Assembly (NCBI GenBank): GCA_030148605.1 | Contig: JASBTD010000035.1 | Span: forward strand, 1 to 64,000 | Length of the DNA: 64,000 nucleotides | Source: Erythrobacter sp. | GTDB taxonomy: Bacteria; Pseudomonadota; Alphaproteobacteria; Sphingomonadales; Sphingomonadaceae | Direction: 5' to 3' | In this document: positions 60,085-62,849 of the stretch, piece by piece | Layout of the letters: every line of letters begins with the position of its first letter | Numbering within the stretch: the stretch's first letter is position 1 | Notes under the pieces: generated by a model | Seen by the model: the letters and a program-made list of their open reading frames with translations, nothing else | Told to the model about the DNA's origin: nothing | Database searches by the model: none | Program-made: the position numbers and the translations under genes

Positions 60085-60665
60085 GAAGGTAACTCCCCCA
60101 GCTCGCGCAGCGCGCCCAACACGCCCAGCAGTGGCATGCCCAGAACGGTGAACTGGTCGCCTTCTATTCGTTCAAACAATTGCACGCCCATGGCTTCTAT
60201 CCGGAACACGCCGACGCAATGGGAGACTGCCGGCCACTCGGTATCGAGATATAGCCGGATGTATTCCTCCGAAAGCTCGCGCATATGCAATTGTGCAAGC
60301 GAGCAAGTGCTCCATTCGCAAACATCGCCGCGCACTATCGCCGCACCGCTGTGAAGTTCCATCACCTTGCCGGAAAAGAAGCGCAGATGCTCTGCCGCTT
60401 GCTCGCGATCCTGCGGCTTGTCGAACCGGCGGCCCTGGCACACCACCAGGCTGTCACTGCCCAGCACCAGCCGGCCGGGATGTTGCGCAGCGACAGCTTG
60501 CGCCTTGGCAACGCTTAGTGCCTCAGCCACTTCGCCCGGGGCGCAACCCGGCAAGCCCGCTTCAAGCACGCGCTCGTCAATCGCAGCCGGGATCGCTTCA
60601 TATCCAACGCCCGCTGCATCGAGCATTGCGCGGCGTGAAGCGCTTTTCGAAGCAAGCAAGATCAT
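60081..60665 (-). CDS. Maf-family nucleotide pyrophosphatase
   Basis: 194 residues. Start motif [19 protein letters not shown], then [21 protein letters not shown] and [19 protein letters not shown]. Hydrolyses non-canonical or methylated NTPs (YhdE/YceF type). Sits between ppsR and aroE with 4-base overlaps. Confidence 0.93.
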
Positions 60666-61510
60666 ATCGCGCCGTCACCTGTGTCATCGGCAGATTTGGC
60701 GCTATCCTTGCGCTCTTGCAGAAAGCGGATCACCGCCGCAGCGGTTTCTTCAATCGAGCGGCGCGTCACATCGATCACCGGCCAGCCATTATCAGCAAAC
60801 ATGCGCCGGGCAAACTGCACTTCCTCGCGCACTTTCTCTTCATCAACGTATGAGGTATCCGTGCCTTCATTGAGCGACAGCAGCCGGTTGCGGCGCACCT
60901 GCACCAGCCGTTCGGGCGCTGTGGTCAATCCCACCACCAGCGGATGGCGCAGCCCGAACAGCGCCTTGGGCGGCGGCGATTCCATCACCAGGGGGATATT
61001 CGCAACCTTATACCCGCGATTGGCGAGATAGATGCTGGTCGGAGTTTTTGAACTGCGCGATACGCCCGCCAGCACAATGTCCGCTTCTTCCCAATCTTCC
61101 CAGCCAACACCGTCATCATGCGCGATCGTGTAATGGATTGCGTCGACGCGTCCGAAATAGGCTTCATCCATCAAGTGCTGGCGTCCGGGCTTGCCATGCG
61201 CCTCTTCTCCCAGCTGCACTTCGAGCGCTGCCGTGACCGCATCCAGCACCGGCACAGCGGGCAAGCCGATCTGGCGGCAATGTTCTTCCAGCCGGGCGCG
61301 CGTTTCGGGATTGACCAGCGTGAACATCACCAGCCCGGGGCTGGCCGCGAGTGAAGGCACGATCCGGTCCAGATGCTGGCGCGAACGCACCATCGGCCAG
61401 AAATGGCGCACGACTTCGGGATTGTCGAACTGCGCAAGCGCAGCCTTGGCGATCATTTCCAGCGTTTCGCCGGTCGAATCCGAGACAAGATGAAGGTGCA
61501 TGCGTTGCAT
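60662..61510 (-). CDS. ppsR: Pyruvate, phosphate/water dikinase regulatory protein (DUF299)
   Basis: 282 residues (ATG 61510 or 61501). Bifunctional kinase/pyrophosphorylase of the DUF299 family that switches PPDK or PEP synthase by ADP-dependent phosphorylation. P-loop-like [18 protein letters not shown]; start [19 protein letters not shown] is typical. In Caulobacter the gene next to oriC encodes this family. First gene left of the candidate origin. Confidence 0.93.
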
Positions 61511-61829
61511 TTAAGGTATGTCTGCCCCTGTGGAAGAGACACGGCATAAACCACGGTAGAAACCTGCCGACAAGTTCGGGGACGAAATCACTCCCCACTA
61601 TCCGGGGTTTAGCCAAGATGGCTGTGAACAGTTTTGCCAGATTCCCACAGGCTGGGGAAAAGGCAGAAAAGTTTGACTCGACTCACAGCTTCTGGCGAGT
61701 CGCTGTCAATCACCGGCTTTGCAATGCGGGCAAAAAACAGGCAGGAATGGCTTGTACCCGAAATCCACAGGGCCAACAGACTCCAACAATCCTTTATAAA
61801 TATACTATTTATTGATTGGACTTAGCCGA
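61511..61829. other. Candidate chromosomal replication origin (oriC)
   Basis: A 319-bp gap between divergent ppsR and hemE, the same neighbours that flank oriC in Caulobacter. Contents: five GANTC sites at 61640, 61675, 61680, 61697 and 61779; DnaA-box-like 9-mers AAATCCACA (61761-61769) and TGTGGAAGA (61529-61537, complement TCTTCCACA), each 7 of 9 to TTATCCACA, plus two 6 of 9; and an AT-rich stretch 61784-61818 containing TTTATAAATATACTATTTATT that could unwind. Genes on both sides read away from it. Confidence 0.65.
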
Positions 61830-62849
61830 ATGCCTGGTTTGCTTCTTGATACGTTACGCGGTCAGAAATCTGATCAAGCGCCCATGTGGCTGATGCGCCA
61901 GGCTGGGCGATACCTGCCCGAATATCGCCAACTCAGAGCAGAGAAAGGCGGCTTTCTCGAACTTGTCTATGACAGCGAAGCGGCAGCTGAAATCACGATC
62001 CAGCCATTGCGCCGGTTCGGTTTTGACGGGGCGATCCTGTTTTCCGATATCCTGATTGTGCCGCATGCCATGGGGCAAGGGCTGGAGTTTCTGGCTGGCG
62101 AAGGGCCCAAACTATCCCCGCCGCTGCTGGAAGCGAGCCTGTCAGATTTTGCTCCCAAGCCTGAGCGGTTTGAAGCGGTCTATGAAACTGTGCGCCTGTG
62201 CCGCGCGCAGCTTGACGACAATGTCACCATGTTGGGCTTTGCCGGCAGCCCGTGGACCGTTGCGACCTATATGGTGGCAGGCGAAGGCAGCCGTGACCAG
62301 CATGTTACGCGCGAGCTCGCCTATACCGATCCGGCCCGGTTCCAGCGGATCATCGATGCGATTGTAAAGAATTCGATCACTTATTTGCGCGGCCAGATCG
62401 ATGCAGGCGCGGAAGCGGTGCAGCTGTTCGATAGCTGGGCAGGCAGCCTTGCACCTGATCAGTTCGAACGCTGGGTGATCGAACCCAATGCCGCGATCAC
62501 AGCCGCAATCAAGCAATCGCATCCTGATACGCCGGTGATCGGATTTCCCAAGGGTGCAGGCGCGAAACTGGTCGATTATGCGGAGCGCACAGGGGTTGAC
62601 GCCTTAGGGCTGGATGAAACGATCGATCCGGTCTGGGCCAATCGCGTGCTGCCGCAAGGTATGCCGGTGCAAGGCAATCTTGACCCGCTGATGCTGATGG
62701 CAGGGGGCGAGCCGTTGACCGATCGGGTCGCATTTATCCTCGCTGCCTTTGCTGACCGGCCGCACGTGTTCAATCTGGGGCACGGGATCGGGCAATTCAC
62801 GCCGATAGAACATGTCGAACAACTTGTAGAGGCGGTGCGCGGCAAATGA
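61830..62849 (+). CDS. hemE: Uroporphyrinogen decarboxylase
   Basis: 339 residues from ATG 61830. Makes coproporphyrinogen III. Signatures PMWLMRQAGRYLPEYR, LFSDILIVPHAMGQGLEF, GFAGSPWTVATYMVAGEGS and GHGIGQFTPIEHVEQLV. Promoter is probably in the AT-rich part of the gap (TATACT at 61801). hemE is the classical right neighbour of oriC in alphaproteobacteria. Confidence 0.97.
   Translation: MPGLLLDTLRGQKSDQAPMWLMRQAGRYLPEYRQLRAEKGGFLELVYDSEAAAEITIQPLRRFGFDGAILFSDILIVPHAMGQGLEFLAGEGPKLSPPLLEASLSDFAPKPERFEAVYETVRLCRAQLDDNVTMLGFAGSPWTVATYMVAGEGSRDQHVTRELAYTDPARFQRIIDAIVKNSITYLRGQIDAGAEAVQLFDSWAGSLAPDQFERWVIEPNAAITAAIKQSHPDTPVIGFPKGAGAKLVDYAERTGVDALGLDETIDPVWANRVLPQGMPVQGNLDPLMLMAGGEPLTDRVAFILAAFADRPHVFNLGHGIGQFTPIEHVEQLVEAVRGK

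Follow-up and report, generated by a model that had tools for sequence, protein, structure and literature searches.

Is the gap between the divergent genes ppsR and hemE the origin from which this chromosome replicates, and, if so, does anything in its sequence go beyond what such origins are expected to contain? The window – bases 1–64000 of contig C30 (87,901 bp), from an assembly of 66 contigs and 2.60 Mb – holds a 319-bp gap (61511–61829), proposed as oriC in a sequence-only reading. Its left border is ppsR, a DUF299 kinase-PPPase gene (60662–61510, minus strand; PF03618, 313 bits), and its right border hemE (61830–62849, plus strand, ATG at 61830; PF01208, 381 bits); ORF coordinates and domain matches thus bear out the divergent arrangement noted earlier. 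If an inner ATG is taken as the ppsR start, the gap becomes 328 bp (61502–61829), the version used in the later comparisons across relatives. To the left of ppsR, all on the minus strand, lie maf, aroE, coaE and an RNase_T-family exonuclease gene, which we read as dnaQ; to the right of hemE come a UPF0093 gene and a further ORF that looks, by eye, like rho.

By ppsR, the nearest named relatives among the best 80 listed are Sphingomonadales/Erythrobacteraceae (MAG BRH_c3, Altererythrobacter, Erythrobacter), with Qipengyuania and Novosphingobium lower among those 80. The two genes adjoin at 29 of 30 loci examined in the family (f1, which we take as Sphingomonadaceae in the GTDB sense) and at 28 of 30 in the class, these being the best 30 of 75 family and of 69 class genomes having ppsR. 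Since ppsR was detected in 69 of 115 class genomes, the hemE–ppsR pair is no marker of every alphaproteobacterial origin.

Cumulative GC skew, which the sequence-only reading had named as a check for the whole chromosome, reaches its minimum on the 87.9-kb contig at 61250, beside the gap and 261 bp off it. In the congener G012 (one contig, 3.04 Mb; 79% identity over the 519 bp queried), for which skew was taken from 40 stretches amounting to 800 kb, the interpolated curve peaks near 0.16 Mb and has a flat trough at about 1.65–1.77 Mb; the hemE–ppsR gap, at 1.7697 Mb, lies inside the trough, and dnaA, at 1.36 Mb, on the slope. Since the trough is flat over 120 kb, it can locate the origin no more finely than about that distance; the interpolated minimum (1.645 Mb) is 125 kb away from the gap, and single stretches, for example at 1.50, 2.70 and 2.85 Mb, have the wrong sign.

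The partition locus points the same way. No parS-like site falls within the 64-kb window; elsewhere on the contig there are four, at 68608, 70088, 71118 (exact) and 70753 (1 mismatch), where 0.04 would be expected, and parB stands at 72160, the whole group being 7–10 kb distant from the gap. In seven of ten one-contig relatives searched, parB is 9–12 kb off the gap, which was unlocated in the other three; in six one-contig congeners (G012, G003, G021, G022, G026 and G031) the parB–gap distance is 9–11 kb and the dnaA–gap distance 408–489 kb, with 408 kb in G012. Of the two rival places named earlier, parAB therefore agrees with the gap, parB being only about 10 kb from it, and dnaA is both remote and, in G012, off the skew trough.

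Within the gap, the DnaA-box-like 9-mers reported earlier are weak, as had been claimed: three match the consensus TTATCCACA at 7 of 9 positions (61529–61537, minus; 61653–61661, minus; 61761–61769, plus), and none does better. In 1000 shuffles of the gap the mean was 0.86 sites at two mismatches or fewer; because 6% of shuffles reach three, the boxes are weak evidence in the window sequence alone. At three mismatches or fewer there are 12 sites vs 6.4 in shuffles, 1.9% of which reach 12.

Relatives add to this picture. Our footprint alignment comprises 102 distinct gaps – 78 of 80 named loci and 24 other congeneric ones, the window included – and leaves out L095 and L103 (hemE start not found), as well as 12 of 36 congeneric gaps that have their final 250 bp contained in a named gap. 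A first gap comparison was made without G008 and the other-family loci L045, L046, L047, L049 and L052, which were read separately; L205, L239 and L253, where no hemE turned up within range, were left out. Seven alignment columns hold a box within two mismatches of TTATCCACA, each in 19 to 102 of the 102 gaps, so that weak boxes are a clade-wide trait. The box at 61761, beside the AT-rich stretch and overlapping the conserved TCCACAGGGCCAAC (61764–61777), is kept at this level in all 102, that at 61529 in 100 and that at 61653 in 39. Two further columns, both on the plus strand, are clade-specific: one, at 61622–61630, has a box in 44 of 102 gaps (TTGTCGACA in 14), the window reading CTGTGAACA, with no box within two mismatches; the other, at 61641–61649, has one in 55 (TTGTCGACA in 24), the window reading ATTCCCACA, a 6/9 match.

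The AT-rich stretch beside hemE is also there as described: its best 35-mer has 28 of 35 A+T, a value equalled at 37 start positions on the contig, the listed ones mostly at its beginning. Across the 102 gaps, 37 bp near hemE average 78% A+T (lowest 65%). On its A+T content, the stretch at 61792–61818 is probably the unwinding element; a by-eye look for a DnaA-trio motif beside the box gave nothing convincing. The box at 61761 would probably anchor a cooperative loading of DnaA onto these low-affinity boxes, after which DnaA would open the AT-rich stretch.

The best-kept blocks of the alignment are CTGTGGA near 61529, GGCATAAACCACGG (61543–61556), CGACAAG (61568–61574, plus strand), parts of GACAGGCTGGGGA, GAC at 61680–61682, GAKTCG at 61697–61702, TCCACAGGGCCAAC and the AT-rich stretch. 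The first of these blocks after CTGTGGA contains an origin-only element, GCATAAACCACGG (61544–61556, plus strand), present exactly in 75 and in relaxed form in 79 of the 102 gaps. Its exact form occurs once per genome, always in the hemE–ppsR gap, in 10 of 16 genomes and is absent from the other six. Positions 61547–61555 inside it share six of nine letters with the DnaA box, and the element may be a diverged box, a promoter element of ppsR or the site of another protein.

Could the conserved blocks be merely the divergent promoters of ppsR and hemE, with replication beginning elsewhere nearby? The minus-strand conserved sequence TTGTCG-N14-TGGTTTATG could, in our reading, be an extended −10 promoter for ppsR, so that CGACAAG together with GCATAAACCACGG possibly forms the ppsR promoter; in 68 of 102 gaps CATAAAC and GACAAG start 24 bp apart, and 26 gaps are missing one or the other. 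A scan for sigma-70 consensus promoters and for terminators, blind to other promoter types, found none in the gap, however, and this one place unites recurrent DnaA boxes, the AT-rich stretch and the skew minimum, with parS nearby, which makes a promoter-only account very improbable. Promoters may well lie inside oriC as well. Skew, parS/parB, synteny and footprint strongly support the original proposal, and we regard 61511–61829 as almost certainly the chromosomal oriC. With its hemE/ppsR flanks, skew minimum, nearby parS/parB, DnaA boxes and AT-rich element, it is best read as an ordinary hemE-type origin by place and parts. In Sphingomonadaceae the origin lies near hemE in most members (excerpt of PMC4741004), so neither its location nor its type is new.

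The gap had also been noted for its GANTC sites, the targets of CcrM. They start at 61640, 61675, 61680, 61697 and 61779, so the count of five in 144 bp is exact, and the chance figure of about 0.6 set against it was fair, the window rate being 0.29 per 144 bp. Over the 64-kb window GANTC is depleted (129 observed vs 274 expected from dinucleotide shuffles). In 2000 dinucleotide shuffles of the 319-bp gap the mean was 0.96, with 0.2% reaching five, and no other 144-bp stretch of the 87.9-kb contig holds five. Intergenic DNA is richer in the motif than coding DNA (2.78 vs 1.32 per kb in 888 kb, the contig plus 800 kb of G012), and the gap, with five in 319 bp, exceeds the intergenic rate by a factor of more than five. 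Among 159 crude intergenic segments of at least 150 bp, three hold at least five sites – the gap and segments of 589 and 993 bp – though G012's own gap, with five, is missing from the 159, evidently under a spurious ORF. The highest count, seven, was seen at L079:10726–11314 (G012, about 1.531 Mb), upstream of a 692-aa ORF that reads by eye as the large subunit of ribonucleotide reductase.

Across the 102 gaps GANTC reaches 11.7 per kb (2.0 in the flanking genes, taken for 78 of the gaps); no other of the 136 pentamer classes has as high an observed/expected ratio, and single gaps contain between 1 and 8 sites. A peculiarity of the genus can be ruled out: 29 family gaps, one of them from the same genus, have 14.0 per kb and 26 from elsewhere in the class 5.7 vs 1.7–1.9 in their flanks, so the richness is family-wide and, more weakly, class-wide. 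In eight origins belonging to other families of this order, the 450 bp next to ppsR contain just 0–3 sites. In the congener G008 the gap has four.

Single sites differ in how well they are kept. The GATTC at 61640–61644 lies outside the columns kept in at least 8 of 102 gaps; the GACTC sites at 61675–61679 and 61680–61684 are kept in 25 and 41, respectively, with GAC at 61680–61682 conserved beyond GANTC, and the GACTC between box and AT-rich stretch (61779–61783) in 71. The site at 61697–61701 is near-invariant: it occupies the same column in 101 of 102 gaps and lies within two columns in all 102. In 100 of the 102 gaps one strand of the site reads GAKTCG, a form taken by 110 of 368 GANTC sites in flanking genes, and GAKTCG is kept while neighbouring bases vary. 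This fixed position has a narrower distribution than GANTC richness. Such conservation suggests selection, for whatever purpose.

Which protein might read these sites? The host CcrM has N6_N4_Mtase (PF01555) and RAMA (PF18755) domains; RAMA and GcrA (PF07750) are present in 11 of 11 genomes (the host and ten one-contig relatives), and among 14 named control genomes RAMA finds a match in Caulobacter only. GcrA has an extended motif, YGAKTCG (excerpt of PMC7987155), found at the central site in 35 of 102 gaps, too few for it to be the cause of the near-invariant site, which weakens GcrA as the reader. In the explanation that we favour, the sites would be methylated by CcrM and left hemimethylated once the fork has passed; their main effect would come from a protein that senses methylation, GcrA for instance, acting on the origin or on transcription of hemE/ppsR, and not from service as a replication clock.

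The sequence-only reading had gone further, suggesting that GANTC methylation may time replication as in Caulobacter, and this part of it finds no support in Caulobacter itself. Direct timing of initiation, on the Dam/SeqA pattern of E. coli, would suit both the clustering of the sites and the near-invariance of 61697, and over-expression of CcrM gives C. crescentus extra chromosomes (cited in an excerpt of PMC3973325). Against it, a C. crescentus ccrM deletion in minimal medium has wild-type-like DNA content, its authors concluding that the control of initiation there has no need for CcrM (same excerpt), and when CcrM is depleted in A. tumefaciens, the RepC-dependent ori2 is delayed, with no obvious change at the DnaA-dependent ori1 (excerpt of PMC11514494). 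Site number, at 1 to 8 per gap, is moreover inconstant, and we consider direct timing unlikely here.

The initiator of this clade is more unusual than the place of its origin. The host DnaA (gene at G000:C15:51413–52777, L002) reads GGRDHSTV (HST) where DnaAs of other families read GGRDHTTV (HTT), a change at what we take, in E. coli numbering, to be T435. Serine occupies this position in 31 of 37 f1 DnaAs and in 0 of 29 outside f1 (66 read); five genomes (G047, G197, G202, G230, G247) went unread because the motif pattern missed their DnaA, and six of 36 (G203, G219, G038, G183, G149, G208) gave no DnaA locus. L422Y accompanies T435S, and the equivalents of R399, P423, D433, H434 and H439 are kept. 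T435 is listed among the base-specific contacts (excerpt of PMC7561715), and T435M is defective in box binding (excerpt of PMC5742627). The host protein is strongly divergent from other alphaproteobacterial DnaAs in its AAA+ domain too, where box VII reads GVEPRLLSRLSMGL vs GLEERIVSRLGWGL in G041.

In the DnaA tree the 31 Ser-type proteins fall on one side of a branch (support 100/99) reached via several long stem branches; 28 form a crown of short branches and three HST genomes sit on the stem, in a tree whose bootstrap had not fully settled; the placement of four long rows is uncertain, and two of these are HST proteins on the stem itself. Mean DnaA identity in 49 genomes having all three proteins (DnaA, PpsR and HemE) is 0.864 within the crown, 0.424 between crown and non-f1 and 0.668 among non-f1, against 0.721, 0.491 and 0.539 for PpsR and 0.715, 0.489 and 0.538 for HemE. 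DnaA is thus usually the better kept protein and the worse kept across the clade stem only, and at 34 positions at least 95% of the crown share one residue and at least 90% outside f1 another. On these alignments the clade's DnaA changed in a burst not seen in the PpsR and HemE controls, which reject globally fast evolution as its source.

The boxes changed too. TTGTCGACA occurs 45 times and CTGTCCACA 44 times in 121 clade gaps and neither occurs in 35 other gaps, whereas the consensus TTATCCACA is found 7 times in the former vs 12 in the latter, and perfect copies stand in four of eight same-order, other-family origins (450 bp beside ppsR). The core TCGACA was observed 169 times in 119 crown gaps, 90 of which have it, vs 14.9 expected; elsewhere it keeps to expectation (5 vs 5.0 in 29 non-f1 gaps; 1 vs 0.7 in six HTT f1 gaps), with 2 vs 0.6 in the three stem HST gaps. 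The window gap itself has no TCGACA box. These counts come from related sequences with shared columns and are not independent events, and the named gaps and that of G149, which was counted with the crown, were put in the clade by kinship, without reading their DnaA. As TCCACA is still the commonest crown core (249 observed vs 19.1 expected), the change is one of addition and weakening, not a clean swap. GCATAAACCACGG in relaxed form follows the same division, occurring in 26 of 30 HST genomes with a gap, in 0 of 6 HTT f1 genomes and in 0 of 23 non-f1 genomes with DnaA read. GANTC richness probably predates the DnaA change, since 12 sites lie in the 350-bp hemE–ppsR gap of L208, from a genome (G130) that belongs to the family and has an HTT-type DnaA.

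Did initiator and origin change together? We infer that in this clade they did, and we hold tentatively, at a little under an even chance, that DnaA was rebuilt in a burst and the origin rewritten with it, from TTATCCACA to TTGTCGACA- and CTGTCCACA-type boxes, with the 13-bp origin-only element added and a near-invariant CcrM site. The clade's boxes would have changed alongside the re-made DnaA (T435S, L422Y), and loading of this clade-specific protein would be cooperative and of low affinity. The joint change is a correlation within one clade, and hence one event, not many. A competing account, which we rate as plausible though somewhat short of even, takes the burst to be unrelated to the boxes – drift, or selection on another function of DnaA, with box specificity unchanged. 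Serine for threonine is a conservative replacement, the equivalents of the five residues named above are retained and TCCACA persists as the main crown core; the three stem HST genomes, moreover, together hold three consensus TTATCCACA and no TTGTCGACA, so Ser preceded the box change. Relaxed selection, however, would fit poorly with a post-burst DnaA that is 86% identical within the crown vs 72% for PpsR and HemE, and the new boxes and GCATAAACCACGG are concentrated in the very same clade.

DnaA and its box are usually regarded as near-universal. If the joint change is real, it offers a natural case of initiator and origin shifting specificity together, with HTT-type outgroups, three stem lineages and a uniform crown as material on how an essential initiator and its origin can change without cell death. 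No title or excerpt among the literature matches listed, which take in few subscription journals and not the Sphingopyxis additional file, describes it. This clade-wide change would matter more than the origin itself, which was expected and already predicted in print for the family. The near-invariant GANTC, for its part, presents one defined base change for probing the role of a CcrM site at an origin.

Among known systems, E. coli oriC likewise has methylation sites clustered in the origin (Dam/SeqA), although with another methylase and another motif. The Caulobacter crescentus origin, Cori, is linked to hemE; PMC4741004 cites a gene-cluster paper by Brassinga et al. The CtrA motif is TTAA-N7-TTAA; the window gap has none at up to one mismatch and the 102 clade gaps no exact copy, so the gap is not a Caulobacter-type CtrA-regulated origin by this motif. 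Cori, unlike the gap, has five CtrA sites (excerpt of PMC4468827). It resembles the gap in its hemE linkage, in its several GANTC (excerpt of PMC3973325) and, the boxes being compared by description, in its weak DnaA boxes (G- and W-boxes) and a parS within 8 kb (PMC4468827, same excerpt). Unlike the Dam/SeqA system, it is a setting in which loss of CcrM leaves initiation undisturbed (excerpt of PMC3973325). For Sphingopyxis, an additional file of PMC4741004 gives a box consensus of its own, so that the box shift may in part have been described before; the main text of that paper has no match for GANTC, and the excerpt makes no mention of a changed DnaA. The oriC of Sphingopyxis granuli TFA and of the Sphingomonadaceae in DoriC share with the gap the hemE locus, DnaA boxes and a putative unwinding element (excerpt of PMC4741004).
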